Source of the DNA: Stenomitos rutilans HA7619-LM2
GTDB lineage: Bacteria > Cyanobacteriota > Cyanobacteriia > Leptolyngbyales > Leptolyngbyaceae
Length of the DNA: 64,000 bases
Assembly (NCBI GenBank): GCA_019358945.1
Contig: JAHHIE010000001.1
Span: forward strand, 1-64,000
Reading direction: 5' to 3'
Numbering within the stretch: position 1 is the first letter of the stretch; each line of letters opens with the position of its first letter. The position numbers and the translations under genes were made by a program. Positions 20,745-28,054 of this stretch are shown here, in pieces. The notes beneath the pieces are model-generated. The model ran no database searches. It saw only the letters and a program-made list of their open reading frames with translations, and was not told the DNA's origin.

Positions 20745-20947
20745 AAGGTAAAAGGCAGAAGAAGGCAGAAAGCAGGAGGCAAAAGACAGAACAACTCAAA
20801 ACTTCTCCGTGCTCCCCTCGCGCCCTTGTCTCCCCCTGCCCCCCCGCCCCCACTCCCTCTTAAAAAAAGGCATTTAGAATTTCTTAATAGTACAAATATA
20901 CTGTTTTGTGTGTAGAATACTCACAGCAGAACATTGAGGAACTTTCG

Positions 20948-21214
20948 ATGCAACCAGCACTCAACTTCTCGCTCGAAATTGTGGATGGCGAACGTCTGGG
21001 CAAGCTCGCTGTGCCCTACGTTCAGATGGCTCGATGGCTGAACTTCTTAACCTCGCCCCATTACGGCGCTGAAATTATCTTCGCTGAGCAAGGTAGAGAT
21101 GGCGTGACTATCTATTTCGATGCTTGCGAGGGCATGTATAGTTATTTGAGCGATCGTATCCACCCTGAAGCTAAAGCTCCACAGCGAGAAGCATCCCTGC
21201 CAATTGCCAGCTAA
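20948..21214 (+). CDS. Small conserved hypothetical protein
   Basis: 88 residues from ATG 20948, with GAGGA 7 nt upstream supporting this start over the longer frame from 20906. Soluble, mixed alpha/beta (FSLEIVDGERLGKLAVPYVQ, then AEIIFAEQGRDGVTIYFDA). The sequence looks coding and cyanobacterial in type, but I cannot name a family. Confidence 0.65.
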   Translation: MQPALNFSLEIVDGERLGKLAVPYVQMARWLNFLTSPHYGAEIIFAEQGRDGVTIYFDACEGMYSYLSDRIHPEAKAPQREASLPIAS

Positions 21215-21238: not shown

Positions 21239-24025
21239 TTAGGTTTGAGCATTCACGCTGGCGCAAAACTCACGATCTTTAGGATCAGCGCTAGGGTTTG
21301 TGGTCAAGTAGTCGTGTAACCAGGTACAACTCCGTTGAATCAGTGCATCCAGGTTGAGGTTTGCTAAATTCCAGATCACAATTTTTCCGTCATCACTGCC
21401 CGTTGCCAGAGTTTTTCCATCAGGGCTAAAGCTCAAGCCAAAAATGCTGTTGCTGTAGCCTGCTAGGGTAGCCAGCAGCGTACCATCACGTTTCCAAAGC
21501 TTAACAGTGCGATCGTCACTGGCCGAGGCAATGGTCTGTCCATCTGGGCTAAACGTTACTCGGTTAATAATGTCTTTATGACCGCCAAAGGTCGCAATGA
21601 CAGTACCGTCTAGTTTCCAGAGATTGATTATCTGATCAAGACCAGCAGATGCAAGTACTTGTCCATCAGGGCTAAAGGCAATACTGCGAACGCCGGCCGT
21701 AAGCGTCGGGAACGTTTTCAATAGTTTGCCATCGAGGCTCCAGAGCTTAATGGTTTTGTCACTACTGCCAGTGGCGATCGTTTTGCCATCGGGGCTAAAA
21801 CTAACATCATTAACTGTATCTCCATGCCCACACAAGATTGTGGAGAGTGTGCCATCGCGTTGCCAGAGCCGCACTGTCTTGTCTACGCTGGCAGAAGCAA
21901 GTAACTGGCTGTCGGGGCTAATGTTGAGATTAACGATGAGATTCTGCCCCTCAAGGGTTTTGAGGAACATACCATTGCGATTCCATAGTTTTACCGGTTC
22001 CATACCGGCTGAGGCGATGAACTGTCCGTCAGGACTGAGTTGAACGGCAAATACTCTATCGTGATGTCCTTTCAGAGTTGATCGTAGTGTTCCATTGGGC
22101 TTCCAAAGCTTGATGGTTTTGTCACTACTGGCAGAGGCAAGAACTTGTCCGTCGCGGCTGAAACTAAGGCTATTTACAGCTTTCTGATGCCCAACGAGAA
22201 TTGTCATCAGGCTATTGTCTTGCTTCCAAAGCTTGATGGTGCGATCCTGGCTTGCTGTTGCAATAAACTGCCCATCAGGGCTAAAACTGACTCCATTAAC
22301 GAGTGAGCTATGCCCATAGAGTGTGCCGAGCAGTGTACCATCCTGCCTCCAAAGTTTGACCGTTTTGTCGCCGCTGCCGGAAGCAATAATCTGATCGTCT
22401 GGACTAAAAGCAACACCATAAACCGCATCAGTATGCCCACTAAATGTTTTCAGCAGCGTCCCGTCGCGCCTCCAAAGTTTAACGGTATTATCGACACCGG
22501 CTGTCGCGATGACCTGATTGTCATGGCTGAAACTAACTTCACTGACAATGCCACTGTGTCCTACAAGCGTTTTGCTTAATTTACCGTCAGATGTCCAGAG
22601 TTTTACTGTACCGTCATCACTAGCAGTTGCTAAGGTCGTTCCGTCTGAAGTAAACCTAACACTACGGACACGTAGACTATGCGCCCCGAAACGTTTGAGC
22701 AGACGACCATCTCGATTCCATAGAATGACTGTACCGTCTATGTCTCCTGATGCAATCGTCTGACCGTCGGGGCTGAAATCAACCGCCGAAAGTCCACTCT
22801 GGTGCCCGTTGAGCGTTTTCAGTACTTTACCGTCTAATTGCCACAATCTCACGGTTTTATCGTTGCTGGCAGAAGCAATCATCTGACCGTCTGGACTAAA
22901 ACTGATATCTCTTACAACACCTTGATGTCCCTCTAGGGAGGCAATGAGTTGCCCATTCGGTTTCCACAATTTGATTGTTTTATCGCCACTACCCGAAGCA
23001 AGTAGCTGCCCATCAAAGCGAAACCGTACTTGCCCAACCCAATCTTTATGCCCCTCTAAGCGGTTTTGTTCTCTAACTCGGTATACCGCTTGCCCAAACG
23101 TCGTTAACACCTCATTCCGGGTCTCTTGCTGCGCCCAGTTTGCTTGCTTTAGTAGCCTGGCTGTACGTAATCCTTGAATCAGTGCGTCAAACTCCCGATT
23201 TAAGGTAAACATTGCCTCTGATGTGGCACGGAGAGCGTTTATTTCACCAATCACGGCTTGCTTGCGATGATCTTCGGCGATTCGATACTGTTGAAACGCA
23301 ACTAACCCAAGCACTGATGAAACAACTAACCCCAGCGTGACGCTGGCAAGCACTAATTGCTGCCGTCGAGCGTCTGTCTTTTGTCGTGCGGTTTCCGCTA
23401 AGCGGCTCGTGATGACGTACTCTTGCTGTAGTTCGATTGGGTACGGCGCTGTATGCCGCCCATCCGCAAGCCATTGCTCTGCCCGTTCAAGCACATTGCC
23501 TCGCATCAGCCAGCTCTCGTCGCGGTTTTGCTTTTCCCACTCGATCGCCGCTCTTAGCAGACGAGTGTGAAGGCGGACATGCTCCAAATCGGTGTCAAGC
23601 GCTTTTAACAACGTTTGCAAGGCGCTGTCAAAGTCATCACGATCGCGGAAATAGATCCAATTGAGTGCTGATAGGCTTGGGTGAACGTCTTTGGCATCTA
23701 CATCCTTTCGCAAAATGGGCAATAGCCGCTTGTTCAGCTTAATTGCCTGCTCCAATTCGATTCCACATTCAGCGGAGTTAAGCGAGTCAGGGCTAATGAT
23801 GAATAAAAATGTGTCGCCTGCAATAATTCCGTCAGAAATTTCTTGTCGCCATTCTGCATTCGGCGGAATACTGTCCCAATCAACCCAAGCAATTCGATTG
23901 TTAGCTTGAAGGGCTTCCCAAAGCTGTTGGACAAAAGCTTTATCACGGCGCGAGTAAGAGATGAACGCTTCATAGTTCAACTTAGCCGTGTGAGAACTGG
24001 GTTTCGGTGGATTGGGTATAGACAT
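21239..24025 (-). CDS. Membrane-anchored TIR domain protein with 14 WD40 repeats
   Basis: 928 residues. The TIR domain spans about 17-140: YEAFISYSRRDKAFV (box 1), a WVDWDSIPP loop, and SAECGIELEQA with candidate NADase glutamate Glu90. A helical linker (150-220) precedes one transmembrane helix (about 224-245) and another helical segment. From about 323 to the end are 14 WD40 repeats of about 41 residues (GH...V..VSFSPDG..IASAS.DKTVKLW), enough for two seven-bladed propellers. No NACHT or other NTPase lies between. In bacteria TIR domains often deplete NAD+ in immunity; propellers sense ligands. It follows the protease gene at 24131 by 105 bp on the same strand. Confidence 0.92.
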   Translation of the reverse strand: MSIPNPPKPSSHTAKLNYEAFISYSRRDKAFVQQLWEALQANNRIAWVDWDSIPPNAEWRQEISDGIIAGDTFLFIISPDSLNSAECGIELEQAIKLNKRLLPILRKDVDAKDVHPSLSALNWIYFRDRDDFDSALQTLLKALDTDLEHVRLHTRLLRAAIEWEKQNRDESWLMRGNVLERAEQWLADGRHTAPYPIELQQEYVITSRLAETARQKTDARRQQLVLASVTLGLVVSSVLGLVAFQQYRIAEDHRKQAVIGEINALRATSEAMFTLNREFDALIQGLRTARLLKQANWAQQETRNEVLTTFGQAVYRVREQNRLEGHKDWVGQVRFRFDGQLLASGSGDKTIKLWKPNGQLIASLEGHQGVVRDISFSPDGQMIASASNDKTVRLWQLDGKVLKTLNGHQSGLSAVDFSPDGQTIASGDIDGTVILWNRDGRLLKRFGAHSLRVRSVRFTSDGTTLATASDDGTVKLWTSDGKLSKTLVGHSGIVSEVSFSHDNQVIATAGVDNTVKLWRRDGTLLKTFSGHTDAVYGVAFSPDDQIIASGSGDKTVKLWRQDGTLLGTLYGHSSLVNGVSFSPDGQFIATASQDRTIKLWKQDNSLMTILVGHQKAVNSLSFSRDGQVLASASSDKTIKLWKPNGTLRSTLKGHHDRVFAVQLSPDGQFIASAGMEPVKLWNRNGMFLKTLEGQNLIVNLNISPDSQLLASASVDKTVRLWQRDGTLSTILCGHGDTVNDVSFSPDGKTIATGSSDKTIKLWSLDGKLLKTFPTLTAGVRSIAFSPDGQVLASAGLDQIINLWKLDGTVIATFGGHKDIINRVTFSPDGQTIASASDDRTVKLWKRDGTLLATLAGYSNSIFGLSFSPDGKTLATGSDDGKIVIWNLANLNLDALIQRSCTWLHDYLTTNPSADPKDREFCASVNAQT

Positions 24026-24130
24026 GTAGCGTTCTACCTAAGGGAATTGAGAAGCTATAAATTCGTGCTTAAGTTTAGCTTGAAGCAATACGCAAGCTAA
24101 GTTACGACACTTTATGCTGTCTGACGAATA

Positions 24131-27100
24131 TCATCTAGAAGTAATTGTGTCGCCCAAATTTGCTGTCCACGCGTCAGGAGAACTGAGACCAAACTGTTTG
24201 CTCTCAACCCATTCGGACTTGATGAGCGACCACCAATCTCGCGCTAAGCCGTTCAACACGTAGTCGTAGGGAAGCCAGCCGTAGCCGCCTTCGCCCCAGT
24301 TTACGCCCCACGAATTTTTAATCAGCAATGCGCCTGGGTTCGTTGCATTTTTGATTTGCTTATAGTCGTTGTAGCCAACGGCGATCGCGGCATGTCCTCC
24401 TTCCTGCTTATCATCCAGCGTGGGATACGGAATATGTCCCGGTGGATTGGTTTTGTCGCGAATCGAGTCGTAGACCGTAAAGCCAAACATACAGGGAAAC
24501 CCGCCGACCAGGATAGTTTTAATTTGCGCTAACAGCTCTCGCGCAGGCATCGCGGCACCATCCAGGCGAAAGTAGGTAATTGTCTGGTAGTTTTGGGCAA
24601 AGGCGTAGCAAAAGGCAGAGGGGTCATCGTCAAATTTTGCTTCATCGTAGGGGCAATATTCTTCTGGCGGTACACCAAACAACACCATTGCTTTCATGGT
24701 TTCGCGCACCGATGCCCCTGTATCCCCTTCACGGTGCATCAAGTTACGAGTGACTTTGTAGAGAAAGCGGCGGGACGCATCGAGCGCATCTCCAAGGCTC
24801 TTCTTTTCAAAGTATTCAAGTAACGCAACGCCAGCATGAGCAGTACACGCATCAAGTTCGCCTTGATCTTCTACTTCTGAACACCAGATACTGAGATCGA
24901 CCGAATCAGGAAGTATGAGATAAGTGGTGTTGCATTCTTCTGCCTGTTGAGAAAGCGCACGATACATTTTTCCAGTCACCGGAAGCTGTAGTGAGCAGCG
25001 ATCGCAGTTAAGATCGACTCGGATGAAGGTCTGATCTCCTCTGGGTATAGCGTTAATTTCGCTGTTTTTGTTAGTACCAGCTTGTTGAGCTTTTCCTGAT
25101 AGCGTAACATAGCGCTCGGCATTGACAAAAAGCTGCTCTTTAATCCATTTTTTTACTACTTCTACCAATTGAGTGGGTTGGTTTATTTGGCTGATGTCCT
25201 TCTCTACAGACGGAGTAGATTTGTGGAGGGCAGATGTCACCAGCGGTTGTAGTTGTTCAAACATATCTAAGCCCACGCTTGATAGCTCCTGCTGCCTAAA
25301 CTCCGCTTTAAGAATAGCCAGAGTTTCCACCAGGGATTCATACTCTTTCGTGAGTCTGTCAATATCTCCTGAAACATCAACAATTAAGCCGTTTAGAATA
25401 CGACTAATCTCTTGTACTTGTGAAAAATATGCAATCACTCTAAAGCGCCTCAATCCATCTCTAAAGGCTTCTTTAGGCTCATTATATTTACCAATTGGAG
25501 AAATGAGATAGGCGATCGCTTTGGCGATCGGATACAGCGTGAAGCGAAGAATCAATTCAAGGAATTGTCTAGCCAAAGCCTGCTTTTCTTCTATGGTTTT
25601 GCTAGATTCATTAATCTCTTGAGCGATTTTCTTTAAAGCTACCTCGCTGCTAGAGTCTAAAGCATTAACTGGTATCACTGGCTGAACCATCTCAACCCAG
25701 TGCACAGAATTAGGTGGTTTAGAAACGTCCTGAATGCTTAAAACAATTTTGTCGATTGTCTCAAAAATATGAATTTTACTGAAATAGCGAATCAGTCCCT
25801 CAAGTCCACCTAGATCAGCAATCAAGCTGGCAGTGAGATCATCTGGCAATGGCGGCTCCAAATTGACAAACTTCTCTTGGGACATCTTCTGTAACTGCTC
25901 AATGTCAGCTAACTTGAATTTGCCGTCTGGTTCAGGTTCTCCTCTTGCTACCTGAAAACGCTTTACAGCTTCCTGTGTGATTTGCTCATCAAAGTAACCC
26001 GTTGTGGGAGCATCGTAGTATCCCAGTGCTCGCAAGCGCTCTTGAATGTACGTGATGGCTGGTTGAGCCACCCCTGGCTGGTAGCTTGGATAGCGAAAAA
26101 TATTACTGGAAACATATCCTTTTCCCTGCTCTAACCAATCAGCCAGCCGTAAAAGTCGCTTCGACTCAGTGCTCATTCCGTTCTCGCTGTCTGAAGGCTG
26201 ATTGACAATATTAACCAGTGACTTATAGCTAGTTTTAAGCGCCTCTTCTAGAAACTTACTATCAACCGGAAGTGTTTTATCTATACAGGTAGCCAGTTGA
26301 ATCAAAACCTCAATAATCGGTTCAAGACGCTTTTGTAGTTTTTCTTCGATCTCCTTTAGTACAGGTAGTACAGGTTCTTGACCATCAGCTTTTTTACCAC
26401 TTTCATCAAAGAGAAATCGATCGATATCCTCCAAGCCTCCCAACTGGTTAATAATATTAGGAATTCCACCTTCCTCTTCCTTGATTAGTCTAAATATGTA
26501 TTTTTTTAGCTCTTTAAACCGTTTTTTTGGCACTGGAGCAGAAGGTAGTACTCTTCGCAGATCTTCATTTTCATACTTCTTAATTAGCTTTTCCCAAGTT
26601 TCCTGGTCAACAATTGCCTCCTCTCTACTTTTTTCTTTTGAAAATTCTTTTTGAAATTCTTTTTGAAAATCTAGAACAGCCTGAGAGGTCTTAGTACCAA
26701 ACAAACCAAGCGGCTTATCAACTTCAAACGAATTAGGTGGAGCTTCAAGTAGCGCTTGAATATAAATAACACCTGGACCCGACACGCCCGATCGATACTT
26801 GCTGCTGCCTAACTTGCCCACAATTGATATTAAGGCTAATAGCTCTGCTTTGGTGACAGCCGTGTAAATACCCGTTGGGTCAAGCTCTTGATTGATTTGA
26901 AATGCTTTGACCGCTGCCTCAGTTGCTTTACCAAAGTGACCTGGATCATCCGGTTCCAGGAGGTCTTTTTCTTGATCGTCTTGATTACTTGCTTTCGATG
27001 GCTGCTTTAAGCTGTCCAAATCCAACAGATTATTCCTGTAATCAAATTGGTTATTGTCCAATTTCAAATAATGCAACTTTTCGAGGTTATTCTGTAAATC

Positions 27101-27427
27101 CTGTACTGCACTACCTGAACTACCTAAAGATAGAAAACCATCAGTGAATGTGGCAGAAACAAAATGCAACTTAGAGTCAATCTCTTGTGTAAACTCCTCT
27201 TCTAAAATTGACAAGCTATGAGTAATATTGGGATCTACTATTGAGGTGGGGCTCTCTGGTGAGGGTTTCAAAATTTTAATGAGGTCGAGAAATTGTCGAG
27301 CACGATCGACCTCACTACCACCGCTGGACTGCTGGCTCTTCTGAATGTTTCTTACGTTGTCGTGCTTCAGGGTGCAATCTCTCACATCCGGGTAGTCAGG
27401 TACCCAGCCCATGCCTTTTTTACCCAT
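24131..27427 (-). CDS. Multidomain protein: peptidoglycan-binding-like modules plus C-terminal papain-like (C1) protease
   Basis: 1098 residues. It begins GMGWVPDYPDVRDCT, a start typical of bacterial C1A proteases. Peptidoglycan_binding_1-like modules lie at about 93-200, 203-285 and 447-515 (AITYIQERLRALGYYD...TQEAVKRFQ). A long helical region spans 520-780. The protease domain has all papain residues: Gln855 (EDQGELDAC), Cys861, His1012 (GGHAAIAVGY) and Asn1038 (LLIKNSWG). No signal peptide is seen, so it may act inside the cell despite the PG-binding modules. GGAGC 5 nt before the ATG supports the start. It lies just upstream of the TIR-WD40 gene. Confidence 0.88.
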   Translation of the reverse strand: MGKKGMGWVPDYPDVRDCTLKHDNVRNIQKSQQSSGGSEVDRARQFLDLIKILKPSPESPTSIVDPNITHSLSILEEEFTQEIDSKLHFVSATFTDGFLSLGSSGSAVQDLQNNLEKLHYLKLDNNQFDYRNNLLDLDSLKQPSKASNQDDQEKDLLEPDDPGHFGKATEAAVKAFQINQELDPTGIYTAVTKAELLALISIVGKLGSSKYRSGVSGPGVIYIQALLEAPPNSFEVDKPLGLFGTKTSQAVLDFQKEFQKEFSKEKSREEAIVDQETWEKLIKKYENEDLRRVLPSAPVPKKRFKELKKYIFRLIKEEEGGIPNIINQLGGLEDIDRFLFDESGKKADGQEPVLPVLKEIEEKLQKRLEPIIEVLIQLATCIDKTLPVDSKFLEEALKTSYKSLVNIVNQPSDSENGMSTESKRLLRLADWLEQGKGYVSSNIFRYPSYQPGVAQPAITYIQERLRALGYYDAPTTGYFDEQITQEAVKRFQVARGEPEPDGKFKLADIEQLQKMSQEKFVNLEPPLPDDLTASLIADLGGLEGLIRYFSKIHIFETIDKIVLSIQDVSKPPNSVHWVEMVQPVIPVNALDSSSEVALKKIAQEINESSKTIEEKQALARQFLELILRFTLYPIAKAIAYLISPIGKYNEPKEAFRDGLRRFRVIAYFSQVQEISRILNGLIVDVSGDIDRLTKEYESLVETLAILKAEFRQQELSSVGLDMFEQLQPLVTSALHKSTPSVEKDISQINQPTQLVEVVKKWIKEQLFVNAERYVTLSGKAQQAGTNKNSEINAIPRGDQTFIRVDLNCDRCSLQLPVTGKMYRALSQQAEECNTTYLILPDSVDLSIWCSEVEDQGELDACTAHAGVALLEYFEKKSLGDALDASRRFLYKVTRNLMHREGDTGASVRETMKAMVLFGVPPEEYCPYDEAKFDDDPSAFCYAFAQNYQTITYFRLDGAAMPARELLAQIKTILVGGFPCMFGFTVYDSIRDKTNPPGHIPYPTLDDKQEGGHAAIAVGYNDYKQIKNATNPGALLIKNSWGVNWGEGGYGWLPYDYVLNGLARDWWSLIKSEWVESKQFGLSSPDAWTANLGDTITSR

Positions 27428-27547: not shown

Positions 27548-28054
27548 ATGGTTGCCACACCCGCAGAGGTGATGTTGCGTTCAGCGACCCCTGATGATGC
27601 GTCTGTTTTGTTCAAATTAATTCAAGCTTTGGCAGACTACGAGCGGTTATCGGTTGCGGTAACGGGTACGCCAGAAGCGCTTAGAGAGCATCTATTTGCT
27701 TCCCGCCCTTATGCAGAAGCGATTCTGGCAGAGGTGGACGGACAAGCTGTGGGCTTCGCGTTGTTCTTCTATAACTATTCAACCTTTTTGACCAAGCCTG
27801 GAATTTACCTGGAAGATTTATTCGTGTTGCCAGAGTATCGACGCTTAGGCATCGGTAAAGCGCTGCTGAACCACTTAGCGCAACGTGCAATCGCCGAAAA
27901 TTGCGGACGGTTAGAATGGAGCGTGCTGGATTGGAATGCACCCGCGATCGCCTTTTACGAAAAAATGGGAGCCACTGTGTTACCCGATTGGCGCATCTGC
28001 CGGGTGACGGGAGGGGGGTTGGCGTTGATGGCTCAAGTAGATGCTGATAGCTGA
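27548..28054 (+). CDS. GNAT family N-acetyltransferase
   Basis: 168 residues with the GNAT core: LRSATPDDASVLFKLIQALA at the start, FALFFYNYSTFLTKPGIYLEDLF in part, and the acetyl-CoA loop LPEYRRLGIGKALLNHLA. C-terminal WSVLDWNAPAIAFYEKMGA resembles the spermidine/diamine acetyltransferase (SSAT) branch. AAGGA 5 nt upstream supports the start. It diverges from the protease gene across a 120-bp gap. The substrate is unproven. Confidence 0.9.
   Translation: MVATPAEVMLRSATPDDASVLFKLIQALADYERLSVAVTGTPEALREHLFASRPYAEAILAEVDGQAVGFALFFYNYSTFLTKPGIYLEDLFVLPEYRRLGIGKALLNHLAQRAIAENCGRLEWSVLDWNAPAIAFYEKMGATVLPDWRICRVTGGGLALMAQVDADS

Follow-up and report, generated by a model that had tools for sequence, protein, structure and literature searches.

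In type IV Thoeris, reportedly described by Rousset et al. in 2025, the product of a TIR protein is said to activate a caspase-like protease. Here, we describe two neighboring genes from the cyanobacterium Stenomitos rutilans HA7619-LM2, encoding a TIR-headed membrane receptor with WD40 repeats (P0001) and a papain-like protease of the C1A family (P0002). They lie in a stretch of 64,000 nucleotides (the window; contig JAHHIE010000001.1, positions 1 to 64,000) of a Stenomitos genome of 7.28 Mb, and the closest full-length relative is in Stenomitos frigidus ULC18. Type IV Thoeris is similar in joining a TIR gene to a cysteine-protease partner and differs in that the protease has a caspase rather than a papain fold and the system is soluble. 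The closest solved TIR domain by sequence is that of Cat1, in which S7, D33, S68, and E74 line the NADase site and replacement of D33, S68, or E74 by alanine impairs growth arrest (PMC12162218). Of the seven same-chain active-site residues named for Cat1, four are identical in P0001; however, Cat1 is a soluble protein with a CARF sensor that forms filaments with cyclic tetra-adenylate (cA4), and it has no membrane helix, propeller, or protease (PMC12162218).

The conflict systems of multicellular bacteria surveyed by Kaur et al. in 2020 and 2021 likewise include TIR, caspase, and STAND heads, WD40 repeats, and protease partners, and they occur in cyanobacteria. In the accessible parts of these surveys, the peptidases are of the trypsin, caspase, and transglutaminase type, the papain-like cases being a peptidoglycan peptidase and a BTLCP domain, and neither C1A proteases with WD40 sensors nor an outward-facing propeller is reported there (PMC7159879, PMC8195603). 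Relatives of the individual parts occur in a study of sensors associated with diversity-generating retroelements, the accessible part of which contains no C1A protease tied to WD40 receptors (PMC10907252), and cyanobacterial caspase-WD40 proteins have long been known (PMC2853523). The re-use of one protease lineage by different immune sensors is also seen in the nuclease-protease pairs of Hachiman and AVAST, which differ in having a trypsin-like protease and a nuclease proenzyme and in lacking any receptor pairing (PMC12799240). In literature searches, with subscription papers mostly outside their reach, no description of a C1A protease gene next to a WD40 or TIR receptor was found.

Compared with catalogued systems, the locus shows a different composition. 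Thoeris places a ThsA effector of the SIR2-SLOG, membrane, or caspase type beside a ThsB TIR; here, the partner is a C1A protease, and the matches of the P0001 TIR to ThsB and ThcB4 are weak and far below the cut-off. The MoxR AAA+ and vWA genes of the MoxR-vWA/VMAP ternary systems are absent, only the pair lying between the flanks of the empty site described below. Receptors of the STAND/NLR-like class carry an NTPase between effector and repeats, whereas P0001 has no match to NTPase families in its first 275 residues by Pfam, and about half of the related modules include nSTAND1. We rate the pair as belonging to the bacterial TIR/STAND conflict systems, yet to no catalogued one. It looks like a real two-gene receptor-protease module of cyanobacteria, hitherto undescribed, with a role in signaling, immunity, or cell death. 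What the sequences themselves show for the pair is its domain make-up, the conservation of its catalytic residues, the linkage of the two genes, their joint gain or loss, and the exchange of partners.

In order to assess the linkage, relatives of the protease were searched first in 58 related genomes and then among C1A relatives from GTDB contigs and cyanobacterial genomes, and their neighbors were scored. In the first search, S. frigidus and two less closely related genomes had the protease adjoining a TIR-WD40 gene, and the genome of the window had another protease copy, which adjoins an nSTAND1-WD40 gene. The wider search gave 57 distinct cyanobacterial relatives, the window excluded, which were called extended when more than 150 residues preceded the peptidase domain and paired when a sensor lay within two genes. 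Loci were chosen by protease similarity and the partner profiles were seeded from the same loci; sensor types unseen by these profiles would be missed, which would only lower the pairing rate. A WD40 sensor, mostly with a TIR or nSTAND1 head, was present beside 29 of 30 extended cyanobacterial proteases, nearly always as the next gene. Among short cyanobacterial forms, 9 of 27 were paired and 18 of 27 unpaired, and C1A forms outside cyanobacteria were never paired (0/61; Fisher p of 1e-18 for extended forms versus all others and 3e-7 within cyanobacteria). The possibility that short C1A proteases behave like the extended ones was rejected on these counts. Of the nine paired short forms, six have a caspase-nSTAND1 sensor encoded on the other strand, L044 and L081 are long forms that have been broken, and L128 is truncated by the end of its contig. 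One extended form, L131 (405 aa), has no sensor beside it and was counted as an exception; its start codon or its extension may be misassigned, because it clusters with the unpaired short form L024 in the tree and its N terminus has no GWxPDYPD motif at the usual place.

The preliminary description of the locus had made its reading depend on the two genes being neighbors in other genomes, and the pairing does recur across cyanobacterial families, in both gene orders. Gaps between receptor and protease genes on the same strand range from −47 bp (an overlap) to 325 bp in unbroken relatives. P0001 and P0002 lie on one strand and are probably co-transcribed.

The protease relatives were found with three kinds of partner, namely TIR-transmembrane-WD40 proteins, nSTAND1-transmembrane-WD40 proteins, and caspase-nSTAND1-WD40 proteins, the last with a convergent layout. 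Pairing specific to TIR was considered and rejected, since nSTAND1-transmembrane-WD40 partners are at least as frequent; the TIR receptor without an NTPase is one variant of a wider module. The earlier remark that no NTPase sits between TIR and WD40, unlike in STAND proteins, consequently holds for P0001 and fails as a trait of the module, whose members are often nSTAND1-headed. A tree of the peptidase domain with 39 sensor-associated proteases (the window included) and 26 unpaired ones placed all 39 on one side of a branch with support of 94 in the Shimodaira-Hasegawa-like approximate likelihood ratio test (SH-aLRT), just under the starred level. Two divergent extra matches of 400–423 aa on a very long branch (L140, L144) were omitted from a second tree. 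TIR and nSTAND1 partners interleave on the tree, and the starred branches force at least three changes of the TIR label and two of the nSTAND1 label. A hidden Markov model (HMM) of the stalk, built from TIR-headed sensors, matched nSTAND1-headed sensors at E values of 1e-28 to 1e-14 and four caspase-headed ones at 1e-7 to 2e-5. Judged from these profiles, the membrane-stalk-WD40 half, not the head, is the constant partner of the protease, because the stalk profile from TIR sensors recognizes nSTAND1-headed and, weakly, caspase-headed sensors.

In five further Stenomitos genomes, the two genes flanking the pair are next to each other, with a gap of 24 to 265 bp, and in the window and S. frigidus exactly the receptor and protease genes, about 6.3 kb, lie between them. 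Both genes are present at the site in two genomes and neither in five; a search for the protease extension in the five empty-site genomes found isolated peptidoglycan-binding-like stretches only. The pair has been gained or lost as a unit in Stenomitos. A mobile origin was rejected, as only the bare C1A domain, without the extension, was found among the plasmid matches listed and in phages.

The preliminary description had identified a 928-residue protein with a TIR domain (including Glu90), one membrane helix, and 14 WD40 repeats, lying 105 bp from a 1098-residue protease on the same strand, and the open reading frames (ORFs), Pfam matches, residue positions, hydropathy, and sequence all bear this out. 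The TIR domain of P0001 aligns to that of Cat1 with an E value of 5e-8. The alignment is free of gaps in the region concerned and matches S23, D49, S84, and E90 to S7, D33, S68, and E74 of Cat1. An AlphaFold2 (AF2) model of the domain matches solved TIR structures including AbTir, SARM1, SPARTA, and Cat1. E90, D49, S84, R26, and Y24 are invariant in 22 of 22 aligned TIR domains, and the glutamate is kept in all 15 protease-paired TIRs; the adaptor MyD88 lacks this catalytic residue. The P0001 TIR is predicted to be an active NADase because the active-site residues of Cat1 are conserved.

The receptor probably spans the membrane once with its propellers outside. Across 37 sensors, lysines and arginines number 189 in the 15-residue stretch that precedes the membrane helix and 86 in the 15 residues that follow it. 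In 35 complete sensors, the head side (TIR or NTPase) contains 146 cysteines in 16,713 residues and the WD40 body 9 in 20,443, while the last 70 residues hold exactly two cysteines in 35/35, which is the sounder figure because repeat duplication inflates the residue count. The tail pair is also present in 9 of 10 unpaired TIR-transmembrane-WD40 proteins, and three larger WD40 proteins of different build from the same loci contain 14 to 27 cysteines. On the basis of the cysteine pattern and the positive charges on the TIR side, we infer with good support that the propeller half lies outside the cytoplasm (periplasm or lumen), probably with one C-terminal disulfide, and that the head is cytosolic, a Toll-like topology. 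The roles given earlier to the propellers as sensor and to the TIR as a membrane-tethered effector gain support from this predicted arrangement. Animal Toll-like receptors would share the outside ligand domain, the single membrane helix, and the cytosolic TIR; here, WD40 repeats take the place of leucine-rich repeats, the N- to C-terminal order is reversed, and the TIR has NADase-type residues; the likeness is one of layout and not of descent.

For P0002, the three peptidoglycan-binding-like modules and the papain tetrad named earlier (Gln855, Cys861, His1012, and Asn1038) were recovered from the ORF, Pfam, and a residue check. The tetrad, in C1A order, is invariant in 39/39 sensor-associated proteases. 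The peptidase domain is preceded by an N-terminal extension of about 800 residues, and among the 30 extended relatives, 15 contain PG_binding_1 modules and one contains a phage-lysozyme domain. None of the paired proteases has a hydrophobic N-terminal signal, and their cysteine content is about 1.1%; because of these two features, a cytoplasmic location suits the paired proteases. Among solved structures, the cysteine protease 3ois, xylellain of Xylella, is the nearest (profile E value of 3e-42 over 235 positions). Xylellain and short bacterial C1A enzymes (3ois; PMC10380794) belong to the same peptidase subfamily as P0002 and differ in being about 300 aa long, without an extension and without sensor partners.

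We propose a mechanism for the receptor-protease module which, taken as a whole from topology through TIR clustering and receptor-driven proteolysis to arrest or death, we regard as having an even chance of being correct. When a ligand binds to the propellers or is released from them, the TIR domains would cluster through the common stalk, and the clustered TIRs would cleave NAD+. The cytoplasmic C1A protease would be kept inactive or positioned by its long extension and would most likely be switched on by the receptor complex itself, not by a TIR product. The active protease could then either cleave the effector head and so free it from the membrane or cleave proteins of the cell, and the output would most likely be growth arrest or cell death, in keeping with a putative role in immunity or cell death. 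A broader proposal, advanced tentatively as something short of an even bet, is that receptors of Toll-like layout, with extracytoplasmic WD40 repeats and a cytosolic TIR NADase, together with one papain-like clade that serves as their dedicated, exchangeable partner whatever the head, constitute a prokaryotic pathway from receptor to cysteine protease to death.

Activation by the receptor complex is favored because the protease lineage works with TIR, nSTAND1, and caspase-nSTAND1 heads that share only the membrane-stalk-WD40 half. The pairing of the same clade with TIR-less sensors also speaks against an NAD+-derived signal made by the TIR that activates the protease as executioner, as in type IV Thoeris, and domain searches recognized no nucleotide-binding domain in the protease extensions. 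The conserved TIR active-site positions, the invariant protease tetrad, and the cysteine protease adjoining the TIR gene would fit such a signal, which we consider unlikely. In contrast to NlpC/P60 or CHAP, enzymes of the C1A family are endopeptidases that act on proteins; a peptidoglycan-binding match is missing from half of the extensions; and the paired proteases, with no hydrophobic signal peptide and about 1% cysteine, fit the cytoplasm. It is quite unlikely that the modules guide the protease to attack the wall or envelope while the receptor reports on the envelope (lysis, remodeling, or stress) rather than on phage. The modules and the lysozyme domain among the extended relatives and the predicted outward propeller agree with a wall-directed role, as do the lysozyme and papain-like peptidoglycan peptidase effectors that the accessible part of the 2020 survey of Kaur et al. 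describes in NucA-trypsin systems (PMC7159879).

A protease that acts as a brake or turnover factor, removing the activated receptor or resetting the system as a guardian and not an effector, would fit its presence beside a minority of receptors only and its gain and loss together with its receptor; both gene orders occur, however, hence there is no fixed antitoxin-like order, and we find this role improbable. The 105-bp gap and the common strand would by themselves be compatible with ordinary neighbors of no common function, a view made extremely improbable by recurrent pairing in many families, the one-sided position in the tree, the empty sites, and the exchange of partners.

Several points weigh against the module and the mechanism preferred here. 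PADLOC and NCBIfam returned weak TIR matches only, and the protease matched no PADLOC model. The genome of the window has 15 TIR matches to the receptor head, one of them paired; since most TIR-transmembrane-WD40 proteins have no neighboring protease, receptors of this class do not in general require one. Distances between proteases and partners are correlated (r 0.53 for TIR, n 15; r 0.86 for nSTAND1, n 16; 0/5000 permutations each), a congruence that partly reflects shared species descent. Across heads, the correlation of stalk and protease is weak (r 0.40; 136/5000 permutations as high), and head exchange with the stalk retained is only suggestive. The depletion of cysteine in the repeats is not independent per residue, since repeats duplicate. 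Peptidoglycan-binding modules sit awkwardly in a protease without a signal peptide, and an AF2 prediction for the whole protease, based on 14 sequences, failed with a mean predicted local distance difference test (pLDDT) score of 43. Finally, the locus is surrounded by apparent housekeeping genes (psbA-like, aroC-like, and sugar-kinase-like, by eye) and not by a defense island.

If the preferred reading is true, C1A proteases of the cathepsin/papain type would join bacterial conflict systems as an invariable companion of WD40 receptors whose heads can be swapped. Judging by the distribution of cysteines and charges, many cyanobacterial WD40 sensors may form a large class of outward-facing transmembrane receptors; these cells would then harbor many receptors of Toll-like layout, with ligands to be sought outside the cytoplasm. 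The occurrence of paired and unpaired versions within one genome makes the role of the protease directly testable.

Table 1. Features of the receptor-protease locus and its flanks, in window coordinates
Feature	Position	Strand	Basis
P0001, TIR - membrane helix - stalk - 14 WD40 receptor, 928 aa	21239..24025	(-)	ORF, translation, Pfam
TIR_2 domain, residues 21-140; Glu90 codon 23756-23758	23606..23965	(-)	Pfam E 4e-24
Membrane helix, residues ~224-242, single	23300..23356	(-)	Hydropathy 2.42
Helical stalk, common to TIR-, nSTAND1-, and (weakly) caspase-headed sensors	23054..23314	(-)	HMM
14 WD40 repeats, two propellers expected, probably extracytoplasmic	21356..23077	(-)	Pfam; cysteine depletion
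C-terminal tail, conserved pair C900/C921, CxWLxDYL...DRxxC	21263..21328	(-)	Two Cys in last 70 residues, 35/35 sensors
Intergenic spacer between P0002 and P0001, 105 bp	24026..24130	(-)	Sequence
P0002, xylellain-type C1A (papain-like) protease with long N-terminal extension, 1098 aa	24131..27427	(-)	ORF, translation, Pfam
N-terminal motif GWVPDYPDVRD, with small changes in most extended relatives	27377..27409	(-)	Sequence comparison
Best of three PG_binding_1-like modules in the extension, residues 456-503	25919..26062	(-)	Pfam
C1A peptidase domain, residues 840-1051, Gln855/Cys861/His1012/Asn1038	24275..24910	(-)	Pfam Peptidase_C1 E 9e-9
Small conserved gene flanking the empty site on the left, outside the module	20906..21214	(+)	Adjoins the GNAT gene in G002-G006
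GNAT-like acetyltransferase gene flanking the empty site on the right, outside the module; named by sequence inspection	27548..28054	(+)	

Variations on the module were seen among the loci. Three or four tandem TIR domains precede the helix in L042:4087-8100, L043:3458-7618, L149:10300-14415, and L153:3744-7925, each with an adjoining C1A protease, and L127:5806-15086 has one protease with TIR-WD40 genes of the same strand on both sides. Some nSTAND1-transmembrane-WD40 genes follow a CHAT gene, a caspase gene, or a small gene encoding 172-176 aa. A CHAT protease gene ahead of the nSTAND1-WD40 and C1A genes gives a three-gene version of the module in L047:3242-4384 and L151:1602-2627. The small gene (MPKYxVxxVLEII..., no Pfam match) precedes the nSTAND1-WD40 gene at L046:3810-4328 and L094:3424-3954, and its product has an Asn/Gly/Gln-rich stretch in common with the N terminus of the nSTAND1 protein, presumably reminiscent of amyloid-type signaling motifs.

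The C1A gene is split into two ORFs in L044:8255-10840 and L081 (ORFs before 7799) by a frameshift, sequencing error, or decay. The genome of the window (G000) has a large sensor repertoire, with about 15 TIR matches and about 10 nSTAND1 loci over the cut-off, mostly protease-free. Finally, the short C1A genes of L024:2976-8134 and L131 share their loci with a gene of about 1080 aa that resembles, by eye, a LanM-type lanthipeptide synthetase, and because of this gene other members of the C1A family may process peptides.

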